Shown: positions 36,501 to 59,436 of the stretch, piece after piece | Position numbering within the stretch: the first letter of the stretch is position 1 | How the letters are laid out: the number at the start of each line of letters is the position of its first letter | Assembly (NCBI GenBank): GCA_948099385.1 | Contig: CANUEZ040000001.1 | Span: 198,501-262,500 of the forward strand | Direction: 5' to 3' | Origin: Fasciola hepatica | Lineage: Eukaryota; Platyhelminthes; Trematoda; Plagiorchiida; Fasciolidae | DNA length: 64,000 bases | Translations under genes and position numbers: made by a program | The notes under the pieces: generated by a model | Database searches by the model: none | Seen by the model: only the letters and a program-made list of their open reading frames with translations | Told to the model about the DNA's origin: nothing

Positions 36501-36576
36501 TTTCATTTTGGAATTTGCCCGTTGCACATTTTAGCGTTATCTGTGCACGTAGCAACTTGAGTTATGTACATACTGT

Positions 36577-37071
36577 TTTCTGGAATGACTTTGGTTGGGA
36601 AATCATTTGATGGGTGGGTGGATGCACTGTTGATACTATGAACGTCTGCAGCAAACTTCACCTGTTTCGTTTTCTTTCCACACAACAGCCCAACACTTTG
36701 CCATAGTCGGTTTCTGTTATGGCTACATATGAGTTGACTAGCACACAGCAAGTCAGTACGTTCAATTTCTCTCCTTATCAAAAGAGAAATGCATCTTAAA
36801 TTTGAATTATCTCGGGCTCTGTAGAAATACTTCTTCCGTTTTCTCGAGGATTTCAACGTCGGAGAAGTGACACGGCCATTAGAGGGAGAAGGTTCCTAAG
36901 GGGCAGCACATGTCGAGAATTAAATTGACCGTCTCTAAAAAAAGTTTCCTATTGCTATTTAGCGACGATTCGAAAGAAAACCAGAAAGATGAGTGAGAAA
37001 AGAGTTTCAATAGTAGAAGAATTTTATCATGTGAAAAATTTCGGAGACGGATTTTGATTTGACTGGTTTGT
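36577..37071 (-). repeat. Left arm of a 495-bp near-identical inverted duplication
   Basis: The reverse complement of this segment matches 39350-39844 over the same 495 bases. By eye I find one mismatch, in the CCAGT/CCAGC segment near the 37.06-kb end. It carries a piece of CR1-like ORF2 between endonuclease and RT (minus frame 36856-36503, beginning with a basic RKRKKYFYRARD segment). Homology stops sharply at both borders: outside the block the two flanks are unrelated or only faintly similar. Confidence 0.9.
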
Positions 37072-37280
37072 TTGTGAACATCTGTGGTGCTTAGACGAGG
37101 AGCATCAAATTCGAGGAGTGATGGGGGATCTAAAACAATCCACTGTATTTCGAGGACCAAAGAATTTCCTATTTTTGGATAGTTGCAATACGAAGCTTTG
37201 AGCTACATTTGAGCCACAATATTATCATCCTCCTTGTTGCTGCTAATGTGTACGAATTGCAAAAAGACTTCAATTTTGCA

Positions 37281-39032: not shown

Positions 39033-41326
39033 TTGTCGGTTAACACGGCTAATTGTCAGAAAGAGAACACGTGGTCTCAAATATGGATCTTCCAAATAGG
39101 TAGTATGGCATTGTATGTGGTTGAGAGATCAAAATTTTCCCGGAAGCACATGACCGGCTTCGGGGTAGTTAATATGGAGGAATCATCATGTAATTTTAAA
39201 AGTGGAATCTCCGACCATGCATTTTCCATAATCACTGATCAACTTGAATTATTCACCCTGAAGTTGTGTGCACCTGTCTCAACTAGTGACTATTGTCTGA
39301 TTCTGTTGAGGCCTAAGATATTCTTTCCGTCTGCTTCCCACTCTTTCAGACAAACCAGCCAAATCAAAATCCGTCTCCGAAATTTTTCACATGATAAAAT
39401 TCTTCTACTATTGAAACTCTTTTCTCACTCATCTTTCTGGTTTTCTTTCGAATCGTCGCTAAATAGCAATAGGAAACTTTTTTTAGAGACGGTCAATTTA
39501 ATTCTCGACATGTGCTGCCCCTTAGGAACCTTCTCCCTCTAATGGCCGTGTCACTTCTCCGACGTTGAAATCCTCGAGAAAACGGAAGAAGTATTTCTAC
39601 AGAGCCCGAGATAATTCAAATTTAAGATGCATTTCTCTTTTGATAAGGAGAGAAATTGAACGTACTGACTTGCTGTGTGCTAGTCAACTCATATGTAGCC
39701 ATAACAGAAACCGACTATGGCAAAGTGTTGGGCTGTTGTGTGGAAAGAAAACGAAACAGGTGAAGTTTGCTGCAGACGTTCATAGTATCAACAGTGCATC
39801 CACCCACCCATCAAATGATTTCCCAACCAAAGTCATTCCAGAAATTGGCATGCACATAACCCCGTTCTCCACAGAAGAGGTATTTAAGCTTCTTCCTACT
39901 TCCAGAATAAATTCAGGTATGTCTCGATGGCCTATCGTCGTCATTTGAGACATGGTGCTGCTGTTCTGACCGACGTATTCACTTCTCTCTCAAACAAATC
40001 CTCCAGTTCGTTTTCTATTCCCCACTGCTGCCCATCAGTCATTACTGATCCCAAAACCGAACCCTGTAATTCTGGTGTCACAGCTAGAAGCTTTCGTCCC
40101 ATTGCTCTAACTCCATCTGGTCTTAAACTTACAGAGCATGCTATCCCTAAACATCTGAATTCTTCTATAAACTCTCTGATGACCCCTTACAGTTAGCCTC
40201 TAAATCGAATAGGTCCATTGTGAATGTCATCGCTTTCTCAAGCCACCATATCACGGAATACTTGGATGGATCAGCGACTTCTGTAGGGGATATACTTCTA
40301 TAGACTACCCATCGACTTTTGATTCTATTCCGCGGTCTCTCCCCGGTCATAAACTGGAAGCTTTCAGCTGTCCCATACCTTCACTAGCATGGTTGTTTGA
40401 TTATTTTACCAACAGTACTCAGTACACACGATTAGGTTCTAATGTATACAAACCCTTGATAAATACTTCAAGAGTACTTCGGGAAGTTGTCCTTTTCCCT
40501 GTTCATCTACCACCTACACTAGTGACCCTAAACCGAGTTCTCATGCACATTAATTTAAATACGCCGATGATGTGGCTCTTTGTCAAGCTGTTTTTGCAAC
40601 CCGGGACTTCAATAACCTTTCCAGCAATCCACCTCGTATTCATGATTTCGCTGTTTTATTAAGCTTAACTTTAAATTTGTCCAAATGCTTTGAATGCATA
40701 TTTACTCCTCCTCGATCGGCTTATCATTCTGATCCATCTGTCATTTCTACAGAACCACTAGTTAGAATGGGTTAAGTCAAATGCTTAGGAATCACTATCG
40801 ATGAAAATTTGAAGTGGTCATCTCACTTTTCAAATTGTGTGAATAAACTACGCCGTCTATCTTACCAAATCCGAAAGCACAGGCATTTTAATGTTAAACA
40901 GATGATTGTTTCCTTTTTCGTTCATCAATGCATTTTTCGTGTTCCAATTTACTATTTCCCTGTTATTTTTGCTAGTCTACCGAAGAATGTTGTTAAAATT
41001 CTTCGTCGAGGTCTATCTAACATTAGTCGAGTATCTTTCATATCCTTAGATGAACAGTCTGCTAAATTGTGTGTACCACACCTAGCCGCACGTGAAAAGC
41101 TCGCTCACAAAATCCTTGCAGAGTTCATTCATCCTTTACACAGTGATCTATCCGAATATAATCCTCTCAATTCTACGCGGTTCTCCTTTCCATCTACACC
41201 CACTCGCACTAGAGTCTACAGGAACTCTGCTGTTCCGTATCTGGCCCGAATCCTCACAAACCGGGCACGCGTATGGGCCGAATTTCTTGGAAGTATTGAT
41301 ATGCAGTCGATTTTTGCATCTCACTA
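39033..41326 (+). pseudogene. CR1/SR1-like non-LTR retrotransposon ORF2, plus-strand copy (broken)
   Basis: Plus-strand ORF2 remains. 39033-39542: C-terminal endonuclease part with STSDYCLILL where SDH is expected. 39565-39948: linker. Near 40080-40180: ARSFRPIALTPSGLKLTEHA, an RT entry block, followed by the palm in shifting frames. The catalytic YADD box at 40560-40571 is intact and is followed by VALCQAVF. Then LSLTLNLSKCFECIF, EVKCLGITIDENLKW (about 40770-40815) and a C-terminal thumb and tail (40809-41327) ending with NSAVPYLARILTNRARVWAE. That tail matches the C-terminus of the minus-strand copies at 19.7 and 24.3 kb, so all three are one clade. Several frameshifts make it inactive. Bases 39350-39844 are the right arm of the inverted duplication. 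Confidence 0.83.
39350..39844 (+). repeat. Right arm of the 495-bp inverted duplication
   Basis: Counterpart of 36577-37071. It sits inside the plus-strand CR1-like ORF2, where the reading continues on both sides, so this arm is in the native context and the left arm is the likely derived copy. Confidence 0.9.
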
Positions 41327-45302: not shown

Positions 45303-47315
45303 TCACAGCAAGCCTAACCAAGATTTGGCATTGCAGAATCTTTGTATCCAGCCGACTGTATCTGATGTTTGCATTGCGTTCACGCGAACCGTTTTAACCA
45401 ATTCGATATGAGTGGATACGGTGGGACTAGGCTGTGCAGACCACGAAGACACATTCTGCAAGAGAAATCGTGGGCCATTAAACCAAAGTGCATCTAGCGG
45501 CCTTCTCGGGCTGGTACCTCTCGAAGCTAAATCAGCTGGATTGTCTTTGCTGTTCACGTGGACCCACTGTTCAGGTTCCGAAAGTTCACGGATCACCGCC
45601 AGACGGTTGGCCACAAAGGTTTCGAAACGAGACTTGGTATTTCGTATAGACTGCAAAACAATTAGCGAGTCTGTCCAGAACGTAGTCGAGCAGATAGGTA
45701 CGGAAAGTTTTTCTTTGGCAAAGGCGGCTAATCTTACTGAGACAACAGCAGCCGCAAGCTCCAAGCGCGGGATGGTCACAGATTTCAAAGGGGCTACACG
45801 AGACTTTGCCAATATTAGAAAACAGTTTATCATTCCATCTTCGGTAGCAGATCGTAAATAGAGTGCTGCTCCATAACCCAGTTCTGAAGCGTCACTAAAT
45901 GCATGTAGTTCCAGTCTTGGATCCGTCTTCTCATCCATCGGACGTATACAACGGTCAGTTCGTAGATTAGATACTGCTTGAATTTCGCTGAGACACAGAA
46001 TCCATCGATCGATTTCTTCCCGGGTCATTTCCTCGTCCCATTTGGCCTGTCTTCGACATAGGTCCTGGAAAAGCAATTTAGTAGGCATCAAACTTGGAGA
46101 TACAGGCCCCATGGGGTCATAAATTGAAGCGATGTAGGTAAGTAAACCTCGCCGGGTATATTTTTCCTCCCAAGGTGGATCACATGGTACTCCCAGAGTT
46201 CGCTTTACTTCAGCTGGCTGTCGATCAAGGAAAATGGGTTTGGTTTCTGCTTTCGGCAGTTCTCCCAAATCATGTGGCACATTACTGAAGAATTTAGTCA
46301 AGTTGAAACCGCCTTTCAGTAGAGCGTGCCGCAACGTTCTTCCCATTCTTCCAACGTCCTCCATTTTAGGTAAACTCATCAAACAATCATCTACGTAGAA
46401 GCTTTTCTTGGCTTGATTGATCACTGCATTGCCGTAAATTGCCATATTACAGTCGATAGTGTTCTGCAAAGCTAAGCTGCAGCATGACGGCGACGAGGTG
46501 GCCCCAAATGGATGAGACGTCATATGATATGCTTCTGGTTTGTTGGTCACGTTACCGTTAGGCCACCAGATAAGCTTCAGACAATCGCAGTCGCTTGGTG
46601 GGACCTTCCCCTGGTGAAACATAGCTTCAATATCGGCTACCAAAGTGTACCTGTACTCGTGAAACCTCAGCAGCACCTGGCACAAACTATTGACAAGGTC
46701 TGGTCCCGTTAGTAGTTGTTCGTTCAGCGATGTTTGATTGACCTCCACAGCGCAGTCGAACATCGCTTTAACTTTGGTTCGGTCGGCGTGTTTATATACG
46801 CCGTGGTGCGGAAGATACCATATGTGGGGGCCAGTTAGGTTTTCCTCAGTCCCAGGTACCATCTCAGCGTAACCATTTGATATATATTCGTTAATCGTTG
46901 CGCAATACTTTTCCTTCAATAACTGATCGTTTTCAAAGACCTTGCTTGGCACTGGTTGTTCCTGAGTCAAAACACGAATTCCAGGTTCCTTGAAGGATAT
47001 CTGGTCGACAGGTTGATCATTTGAACTTGGGAGAGACTGTACATAGTTTTCGACTCGTTCGGGCTTCTCAAATGGCTGCGGAGTAGGTGGTCGAGCGGTC
47101 TGGACCGACAATATTGACCGTTCTTCCGCTTCCAGATCACGTATCTTTTCTGCGAGCCTCATTCTGGCATCACTGATACGTCTTTCGGTTTCCAGCTCAA
47201 GCTCCAACCTTTTGATCTGTAATTTTGCAAATTTCAGCTCTCGATTCAGCTTCCAGTCGGGGGGTGGGCCTTGTGATAACTGACGTTTACTGGCGGAATC
47301 TTGACGGGACTGCAT
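45303..47315 (-). CDS. BEL/Pao gag-RT-A17-RNase H polyprotein, internally deleted, copy 1
   Basis: An open frame of 670 codons, the longest in the window. Residues about 20-70 are a strongly charged coiled coil from the gag N-terminus. At about residue 115 the sequence jumps to the pre-RT linker. RT blocks follow: IWYLPHHGVYK, MFDCAVEVNQTSLNE, VADIEAMFHQGKVPPSDCD, HPFGATSSP, and the catalytic YVDD (residues 307-310, bases 46386-46397). The A17-like region opens with RRGLLTYIASIYDPMGPVSPS, and an RNase H-like region has LELHAFSDASELGYGAALYL (Asp near residue 474) and TIPRLELAAAV. DUF1759, the zinc knuckles and the protease, all present in copy 2, are absent. The deletion kept the frame open. 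RT and RNase H would convert element RNA to DNA in the cytoplasmic particle. Confidence 0.88.
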   Translation of the reverse strand: MQSRQDSASKRQLSQGPPPDWKLNRELKFAKLQIKRLELELETERRISDARMRLAEKIRDLEAEERSILSVQTARPPTPQPFEKPERVENYVQSLPSSNDQPVDQISFKEPGIRVLTQEQPVPSKVFENDQLLKEKYCATINEYISNGYAEMVPGTEENLTGPHIWYLPHHGVYKHADRTKVKAMFDCAVEVNQTSLNEQLLTGPDLVNSLCQVLLRFHEYRYTLVADIEAMFHQGKVPPSDCDCLKLIWWPNGNVTNKPEAYHMTSHPFGATSSPSCCSLALQNTIDCNMAIYGNAVINQAKKSFYVDDCLMSLPKMEDVGRMGRTLRHALLKGGFNLTKFFSNVPHDLGELPKAETKPIFLDRQPAEVKRTLGVPCDPPWEEKYTRRGLLTYIASIYDPMGPVSPSLMPTKLLFQDLCRRQAKWDEEMTREEIDRWILCLSEIQAVSNLRTDRCIRPMDEKTDPRLELHAFSDASELGYGAALYLRSATEDGMINCFLILAKSRVAPLKSVTIPRLELAAAVVSVRLAAFAKEKLSVPICSTTFWTDSLIVLQSIRNTKSRFETFVANRLAVIRELSEPEQWVHVNSKDNPADLASRGTSPRRPLDALWFNGPRFLLQNVSSWSAQPSPTVSTHIELVKTVRVNAMQTSDTVGWIQRFCNAKSWLGLL

Positions 47316-55381: not shown

Positions 55382-55900
55382 CTATGTAACCTGATTGCAA
55401 TCGCCTAGGACAAAGCTTTCGAAATGAGTGTATTGCCCTACCCACGTTAGTTTATGACAAATATTGAGTTCCAATGCCCCGTTTGCTGTTCGTCGTAGAA
55501 GGACTTCAAGGAAAGGAAACACATCGTCCTGTTCCATTTCTAGCGTAAATCGTAAATTCGGATGTGCTACATTGAACTTTTGTATTAGTTCATGTGCGTT
55601 ATGTTTGGAGGGAATTCGACAGAAGATGTCGTCTACGTGCTTCTTATAGATAGGTAAACTGATGATCACTTGACTCATTGTGTGACATCGATCTTTGACA
55701 TGAATGTATCCGCAGGCAGAGGACCAAGTGAGGATCCCATGGCTATGCCATCTTTCTGTCTATTGATGTTTCCTTAAAACTGAAATTGTATATTTGTGGT
55801 GTACAGTATCAGGAGCTCCTTGCATATATCTAATGGTATATCTATGTTGATGTCTTCTGTTGATAAGTATTTACAAAACTCAGTCTATGGTTTCAGCCAG
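55382..55900 (-). pseudogene. Penelope-like element fragment, copy 3 (RT palm)
   Basis: Minus-strand RT fragment. In order: STEDINIDIP and CKELLILYTTNIQFQF (about 55790-55860), an in-frame TAA, then RQKDGIAMGSSLGPLPAD (about 55710-55775). The catalytic box is HVDD (YVDD in the family) in the frame 55678-55382, followed by FPFLEVLLRRTANGALE and CHKLTWVGQYTHFESF. The block pattern is the same as in Penelope copy 1 but from another subfamily. No GIY-YIG part is seen below 55380, so this is a truncated copy. Confidence 0.8.
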
Positions 55901-56934: not shown

Positions 56935-56983
56935 TGCGTGCGTGCGTGCGTGTGTGCGTGCGTGCGTGCGTGCGTGCGTGCGT
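56935..56983. repeat. (TGCG)n microsatellite
   Basis: About twelve tandem TGCG units with one TGTG variant. Confidence 0.95.
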
Positions 56984-57116
56984 CCTTATCCGGTGAGATT
57001 TATTGTTTCCTTATGTTCTGGGGTCTGTTTGACATCCAAAGTTGCTTACTATGACAACCTATCCAGGTACTCTTTCACGACTGACCATATTGTGTTATGA
57101 TTGACAGTGTACAGTG

Positions 57117-57459
57117 TACTGTCCTCAAACCCATGTGCATTCTACCCACAAACCGATCCATGGGCACGGAAAATCTCGGCCTATACTGATAGAATCGTTG
57201 ATCGAGAAAAATCTCTCCCACACACGTATGCATGCACAGGTTACTTCACCCTTAGGAAAAGTCGCGAAAATGACCTAATCACCTTATTGGAATATCGCTC
57301 CCGTTGATTTGACTTCGAAGTGGGGCACAGACATCCAACTCCGAGTTATTTATCAATTAGTTTGGTTGCAAGATGTGTCGGTGGTGTTGGTGAGATCCGA
57401 TAATGTGCGTAAACGAAGCCAACGTGAAACGTGACTGATCCTCCACCTCCGTTACGAGA
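57117..57459 (+). repeat. Left terminal inverted repeat (with TA)
   Basis: Perfect inverted match to 59094-59436. The long open frame across it (57101-57307) is the mirror image of the one at 59443-59246 and has no domain resemblance, so it is regarded as incidental. Confidence 0.93.
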
Positions 57460-58221
57460 TATCTAGTTGAATTCAGTCGGCTCGAAATGGTAGAGTGTAA
57501 GTAGCCCGATCATATTTGGTTTACAAGATCGATAAACTTGAATTGGATTGAATTCTTGACCTTTTTCATGGCCAAGACACTTAAGAAAACGTGGATGTCA
57601 TTCTTCCAAGCTATTCTCGCTGTACAACCCAAACGATTCCTAGACTAGCCAATATGTGAAAAAGTAAGTGGAAGTTGGAAATGGAAATTTCATTTATATC
57701 CCCGTAAAAAATAATTGTAGAAAATGACAATGAGGAATAATTAGACCATCTTAATTTCTGCTGCTTATATGATGCTCAAATTGACCTCTAATAACCTGCT
57801 CGCATAGAAATATCGTTTTCAAGCAACTTGCTTACATTCCTATTAATTTTGCCTTCGGTATAATTCGTATTTGCTCTACGATATGCAGTTTTAATTCCCC
57901 AGTCTTTTTCAGACTGTCAATGTATCCACTTGTCTAAAGGCCTAAGGAACCAATCCCTTAGTATTTTTTTCGAGTCTTAATCTTTGTCAGCTACTTTAAA
58001 AGCAAAACAAAGTACCGTTTGTCACTTTAGGGATTATTACTTACAGAACTGCTTGTTTGTAAAATTTTGCAATTGCATAGGACGGCTCGTTGTCGATTGG
58101 TTTTTATTTCTCTTGGAGTTGGTCACGCGATACAACCGGATCGCGACCGCTTGAGTTGACATTAGCCGTACTTCAGCTGTCCCTGTAAGCATCATATCCT
58201 GACTGTAGGGAAAGCGTTACT

Positions 58222-58835
58222 ATGGATGCAAAGAAGCGATCATATCGCTTCACCAGTGTAGAAGATCGACAGAGGATAATCAGATGCGCACGAGGAGGAG
58301 ATGATTTGAAGGACAGTACCAAACACCTCGTCGTTAGGATCAAAACGTGCCATGCTGTCATAGCTATAGACCAGGGAACAGCATTCACAGTTCCATCCTA
58401 CAAGACGGGGTTCAACGAAGAGTTTGTCGAGCTTTTGTGTGTGGGGACGAAAACCTAACAGGCACAGTGAGGGAGCTGAAGGACAGGATGAAGAAAGGTT
58501 ACCCATGCACAACAGTCAGGAAGTCATACACCGATCGATTAGCGGATGGGCCTCATTATACCGTCAAAATGCCGACTATTCAGCCAGGGGAAAGAAAATC
58601 AAACAAGGTAAAATCTAAAGGTCCAGAATATGCCGACTGACTGCAACGATCAGGTATTGCAACCATAAGATTGTAATTTGATGAAACCAACTATCGTATA
58701 TAATGTTGTCGTAGCTATAGGAGCTCAAAAGTAGGTAGTAAGGCCATCCGAAATCTTCCGTCAAATACCGAACTTAATTTGAACATTTTAGCGGGTTTAT
58801 CTGTCGCCGGTATTTTGAAGTATGAGAGTCATTGA
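58222..58835 (+). pseudogene. IS630/Tc1-type transposase relic (HTH and start of DDE domain)
   Basis: The first piece starts with ATG at 58222 and reads YRFTSVEDRQRIIRCARGGD, the first helix-turn-helix of eukaryotic IS630/Tc1-like transposases, then a KTCHAVIA segment. A frameshift near 58445 leads to a second frame with TGTVRELKDRM, a second HTH-like block, and IQPGERKSNKVKSKGPEYAD, the linker before the catalytic domain. The same frame continues past three stops (TGA at 58638, then TAA twice) into FDETNYRI, which holds the first catalytic Asp, SKVGSKAIRNLPS, and LNLNILAGLSVAGILKYESH. It ends at a stop at 58833-58835. The second Asp and the last acidic residue of the DDE/D triad are not found, so the C-terminal half is deleted. 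The protein would bind the terminal repeats and cut at TA sites; this copy cannot. Confidence 0.82.
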
Positions 58836-58990
58836 TCGTCTACATGGTGTACTTTTAAGGAGTTTCTGTCATGTTGCGAAGCGCCACACTTTCTCATTTG
58901 TTCAGGTAGCTATGCAACAACGATCTTCACAAAAGGAATAAACTGTTCCAACATTAATTCCGATACGTTTGACATGACTGGCTCGCAGTG

Positions 58991-59093
58991 GCATGGCTAA
59001 AGCTTGTGCGTCAGAGCTAAAGAATGATGGGTCGTGACTAAAGGAGTGAGGGTAGTGGCTAAAGAATTTCGGGTTTTGGCTAAAGTCTGATGG
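58991..59093 (+). repeat. 21-bp subterminal tandem array (five units)
   Basis: Five units of 20-21 bases, each with G/ACTAAAG at the same offset (for example TAGTGGCTAAAGAATTTCGGG), ending exactly where the right terminal inverted repeat begins. No equivalent array lies inside the left arm. Subterminal repeats in DNA transposons are often transposase-binding sites; that role is inferred. Confidence 0.8.
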
Positions 59094-59436
59094 TCTCGTA
59101 ACGGAGGTGGAGGATCAGTCACGTTTCACGTTGGCTTCGTTTACGCACATTATCGGATCTCACCAACACCACCGACACATCTTGCAACCAAACTAATTGA
59201 TAAATAACTCGGAGTTGGATGTCTGTGCCCCACTTCGAAGTCAAATCAACGGGAGCGATATTCCAATAAGGTGATTAGGTCATTTTCGCGACTTTTCCTA
59301 AGGGTGAAGTAACCTGTGCATGCATACGTGTGTGGGAGAGATTTTTCTCGATCAACGATTCTATCAGTATAGGCCGAGATTTTCCGTGCCCATGGATCGG
59401 TTTGTGGGTAGAATGCACATGGGTTTGAGGACAGTA
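59094..59436 (-). repeat. Right terminal inverted repeat (with TA)
   Basis: Reverse complement of 57117-57459 with no difference seen. Confidence 0.93.

Follow-up and report, generated by a model that had tools for sequence, protein, structure and literature searches.

A dead Tc1/mariner-class transposon of Fasciola hepatica with identical 341-bp terminal inverted repeats, probably mobilised in trans in the recent past

How can a transposon keep identical terminal inverted repeats (TIRs) around a transposase gene that has lost its reading frame? This question is raised by positions 57117 to 59436 of the 64-kb stretch of Fasciola hepatica DNA that was analysed here as a whole (the window). The segments 57117-57459 and 59094-59436 were perfect reverse complements of each other over 343 nt, with 0 mismatches, and were separated by 1634 nt; the inverted match and the TA at both of its outer borders, as given in the original prediction, were thus exact to the base. 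The longest inverted match expected by chance in 64 kb is approximately 16 nt, as calculated by formula. Because the outermost TA is self-complementary, it was read as the target duplication, and the TIR proper is 341 nt. The element therefore comprises 2316 bp (57119-59434) within a TA target-site duplication, and its features are as follows.

57117-57118, no strand: TA target-site duplication, left, read from the sequence (TA also at 59435-59436)
57119-57459, plus strand: left TIR, 341 bp, outer end CTGTCCTCAAACC, perfect reverse complement of 59094-59434
57460-58221, no strand: interior with no recognised content and without a long ORF; no further copy in the window
58222-58458, plus strand: 78-codon ORF, probably a remnant of the N-terminal (HTH) part of the transposase
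58446-58868, plus strand: transposase relic (linker and first part of the catalytic domain), identified by a profile match, with four in-frame stops
59016-59085, no strand: 21-bp tandem repeat, 3.3 copies, 8 bp inside the right arm, found by TRF and a repeat search
59094-59434, minus strand: right TIR, 341 bp, reverse complement of the left TIR (100%)
59435-59436, no strand: TA target-site duplication, right, read from the sequence

At the inner edge of the inverted match, identity ended abruptly. TA accounts for 6.3% of the dinucleotides of the window, and the TA borders taken alone are weak evidence, as they represent a single site and TA is palindromic. No additional copy of the arm was found within the 64-kb window, and the first 20 bases of the left arm had 0 exact matches in viral and prokaryote contig collections, in which animal DNA is not expected. 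The CpG ratio of the arm was 1.11, above that of 319 out of 372 windows, which is uninformative. No copy of the 21-bp tandem repeat was reported near the left arm. Outside the element, a tandem ACAGTGT ACAGTGT at 57104-57117 abuts the left border and represents either chance or an old excision trace, and a TGCG microsatellite of 12 copies (56935-56983) lies approximately 130 bp to the left.

A second inverted pair was observed in the window, at 36561-37074 and 39347-39860. Its arms share 98.6% identity over 514 nt, including 485 perfect nt, are approximately 2.3 kb apart, and have ends that are not TIR-like; the ORFs in these arms are presumably LINE-like. This pair is possibly a recent inverted duplication or an assembly artefact. 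Since it lacks TIR-like ends, near-identical inverted segments in this region also arise in other ways, or from assembly. The presence of this second perfect inverted pair in the same window is what would favour an assembly fold-back or a chimeric-read artefact as the source of the second arm at 57117-59436. However, a fold-back would continue into the flanking sequence or close through a short loop, whereas both arms observed here have TA at their outer ends, the flanks beyond them have no mutual similarity, and 1634 nt containing a transposase relic lie between them. We consider such an artefact very improbable.

The relic was approached from a transposase-like pattern seen by eye, and an animal transposase sequence was used as the probe. 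The probe search returned 634 proteins at E<=0.001, and among the 120 matches listed nearly all carried PF13358 (DDE_3). A profile was built from 76 natural relatives, namely the proteins of at least 300 residues among these 120. With this profile the joined reading of the relic scored 34.4 bits, compared with 4.0 bits for the best of 1000 shuffles, and the relic at 58446-58868 reached 31.9 bits, the highest value among 200 shuffled elements being 1.1 bits. When all six frames of the 64-kb window were scanned blind, as 258 pieces without joining of frames, two overlapping pieces at the relic scored 31.3 and 27.1 bits, and no other locus scored above 1.5 bits.

Profiles of the separate domains located the signal. 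The middle-domain profile gave 33.9 bits against 2.5 bits for the best shuffle, whereas the N-terminal HTH profile alone gave 1.4 bits against 3.5 bits, which is not significant, and the C-terminal profile gave −1.3 bits against 4.4 bits. The first catalytic D was located at 58680-58682. The second D and the E were not found in the relic, so that, with regard to a complete DD(x)E/D catalytic triad, the first D alone was readable. A dead copy need not retain the catalytic triad. The longest interior ORF was 97 codons. BLASTP of the joined relic against the 76 relatives showed 22-25% identity among the 8 matches listed, with a best score of 52.0 bits (composition correction off). Some of these alignments began at residues 3-6, and in some rows the 78-codon ORF at 58222-58458 was colinear with the relatives; on this reading of the sequence it is the probable N-terminal remnant given in the list above. 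The relic is, as judged from these matches, a genuine and distant DDE_3-type (PF13358) transposase that is supported only over the central region of the protein, which includes the first D, and its C-terminal part is missing or decayed past recognition. The original prediction of a relic with an HTH plus DDE signature was therefore upheld as to a decayed DDE_3-type transposase (34.4 vs 4.0 bits); the full signature was not recovered, as only the middle and the first D were recognised.

General searches were silent on the relic. Pfam reported no family for the relic pieces or the joined reading at E up to 1, and none for the pieces at E up to 10, where the HMMER filters discard most weak matches. 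A direct protein search with the relic gave 184 candidates, none at E<=1, and a search with the catalytic part alone gave 58, none at E<=10; a PDB sequence search with the relic gave none at E<=10. Structure prediction of the relic without relatives gave mean pLDDT values of 48.4 and 28.8 and was unusable. A viral-contig scan for relatives of the relic yielded 12 pattern matches and 0 relatives, and Rfam and tRNA scans of the window yielded 0 matches. A profile of natural relatives may thus reveal a decayed transposase that Pfam does not report.

The position of the relic bears on a further alternative, in which a non-transposon inverted segmental duplication encloses a transposase fossil by chance. 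Border TA is expected in approximately 6% of random cases, from the dinucleotide share, and the pair at 36561-37074 and 39347-39860 is an instance of inversion without TIR-like ends. On the other hand, the 64-kb window has a single detectable DDE_3 relic, and it lies within these 1634 nt, a coincidence to which we assign a chance of a few per cent before multiplication by the chance of TA. This explanation is thus highly unlikely.

Two further features of the window resemble retroelements. A 670-codon open frame at 45303-47315 (minus strand) combines a Pao retrotransposon peptidase (PF05380, E 1.9e-47) with a reverse transcriptase match that falls short of the Pfam cut-off, and is, by these matches, assigned to a BEL/Pao element. 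Another open frame, at 55382-55759 (minus strand), had no Pfam match at E up to 10; by eye we take it to resemble a Penelope-like reverse transcriptase.

The decay of the gene was compared with the identity of the arms. The frame of the relic contains four stops in 142 codons from 58455. With a stop-codon clock in which 23 of 549 single changes of sense codons yield a stop, the four stops correspond to approximately 0.22 substitutions per site (one-sided 95% lower bound, 0.077), an estimate which presupposes that the gene was already inactive when each of the four stops appeared and that the arms and the interior share a single clock. Between the arms, 0 of 341 positions differed (upper bound, 0.0087). 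Had the arms aged by as little as the lower bound of 0.077, the probability of zero differences would be approximately 1e-22. The decay of the gene is far beyond what the absence of arm differences allows, which argues that the arms became identical only once the gene was already dead. The claim that the identical ends post-date the coding decay (0/341 arm differences vs four stops in 142 codons) is therefore supported.

Both trans-mobilisation of a dead copy and conversion between the arms fit identical arms. We favour, with a probability of roughly two in three, a non-autonomous IS630-Tc1-mariner DNA transposon that was inserted at TA, carries a dead gene and was recently mobilised in trans. 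An ancestor would have encoded a DDE_3-type transposase, and the reading frame of that gene was later lost; an intact relative would then have supplied a transposase that bound the ends, cut the element out and, in the recent past, placed this copy at a new TA. Beyond the observed anatomy, TA borders, homology of the relic and mismatch between arm identity and gene decay, we infer as most likely that the movement was in trans and of the cut-and-paste kind, and that the helper is active or was so until recently.

In the conversion alternative, the same kind of element was inserted long ago, and its arms were recently equalised by arm-to-arm gene conversion through hairpin/cruciform pairing or break repair. 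Conversion explains the identical arms and the decayed interior equally well, and the second near-perfect, non-TIR-like pair in the window indicates that local inverted homogenisation or duplication may occur. However, the identity of the arms reaches the exact outer end of the TIR and then stops, and no patchwork of identity between the arms was visible. A conversion tract could equally end inside a repeat. We therefore regard conversion as an unlikely account, and trans-mobilisation is favoured because the identity spans the TIR exactly and because Bari2 of Drosophila, a published Tc1-type family, shows the same condition.

The TIRs, the TA and the transposase homology support an assignment of the element to the IS630-Tc1-mariner superfamily. 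The DDE_3 (PF13358) relatives belong to the same sequence family as the relic, with the 22-25% identity noted above among the 8 matches listed, and are colinear with it over the middle and the first D; they are distant, however. The named sources among the listed DDE_3 matches were corals and Nematostella. Of the 76 relatives examined, 52 matched the motif, and in 48 of these the second D and the E were 30 residues apart, a spacing that is unreadable in the relic. Neither a named DD30E family nor a publication on this element was recognised in the literature by a search that was partly blind to the spelling 'Tc1/mariner', which in the case of the family is not proof of absence. An undescribed DDE_3 family is possible. 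It is doubtful that the element belongs to an undescribed animal DDE_3 family, with relatives of 30-residue D-E spacing and with 341-bp TIRs, in which dead copies continue to be moved by an intact member present in the same genome.

Should recent movement be borne out by other copies, a working transposase is present in this genome, or was so until recently, and belongs to a group for which no named family was found; in that case the 341-bp ends show what this transposase recognises. Otherwise, the element is one more Bari2-like dead element.

The original prediction had called 341 bp long for Tc1/mariner TIRs, and the published values that we consulted agree: a typical TIR length is 12-28 nt according to one source (PMC4054914), and lengths across the superfamily span 17-300 bp according to another (PMC9777934). 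Longer TIRs are described for Minos (several hundred bp in PMC7325037 and approximately 250 bp in PMC4120734), for Tec (approximately 700 bp; PMC7325037) and for Sailor (DD82E; up to 1362 bp, mostly with TATA duplications; PMC8533490), and those of Visitor (DD41D) are called 'very long' (PMC8533490). The 341-bp TIR is thus long, yet inside the published extremes of the superfamily. HvSm, a family of flatworms and Hydra, was considered as a close structural match and rejected, since its TIRs are given as 15-56 bp (PMC7325037) compared with 341 bp. Minos, Tec, Sailor and Visitor resemble the element in their long TIRs, but their transposases belong to other families. Tc3 of Caenorhabditis elegans is 2335 bp long with 462-bp TIRs and an intact DD34E gene; its total length and long TIRs are similar to those of the element, whereas its gene, unlike the relic, is intact. 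Bari elements are likewise DD34E, and they keep direct repeats within their ends, whereas none was clearly seen in the TIR here: the best internal match to its outer 13 bases was 10/13, at TIR position 24, and was equalled by 85 of 2000 shuffles, and no remaining repeat exceeded the best of 30 shuffles. For Bari2, a Tc1-like element of Drosophila, 253-bp TIRs that are identical or 'nearly identical' are reported, together with a transposase destroyed by indels and frameshifts and only non-autonomous copies known (PMC8834629, PMC4120734). The review states that the reason for the preservation of these TIRs is not clear (PMC8834629), and the Bari2 precedent therefore does not choose between trans-mobilisation and conversion. 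The likeness lies in long identical TIRs around a dead transposase gene. This arrangement around a dead Tc1-type gene has already been described in Bari2 (PMC8834629, PMC4120734), and the element analysed here is a genuine dead member of the Tc1/mariner class, ordinary in kind and probably trans-mobilised recently.
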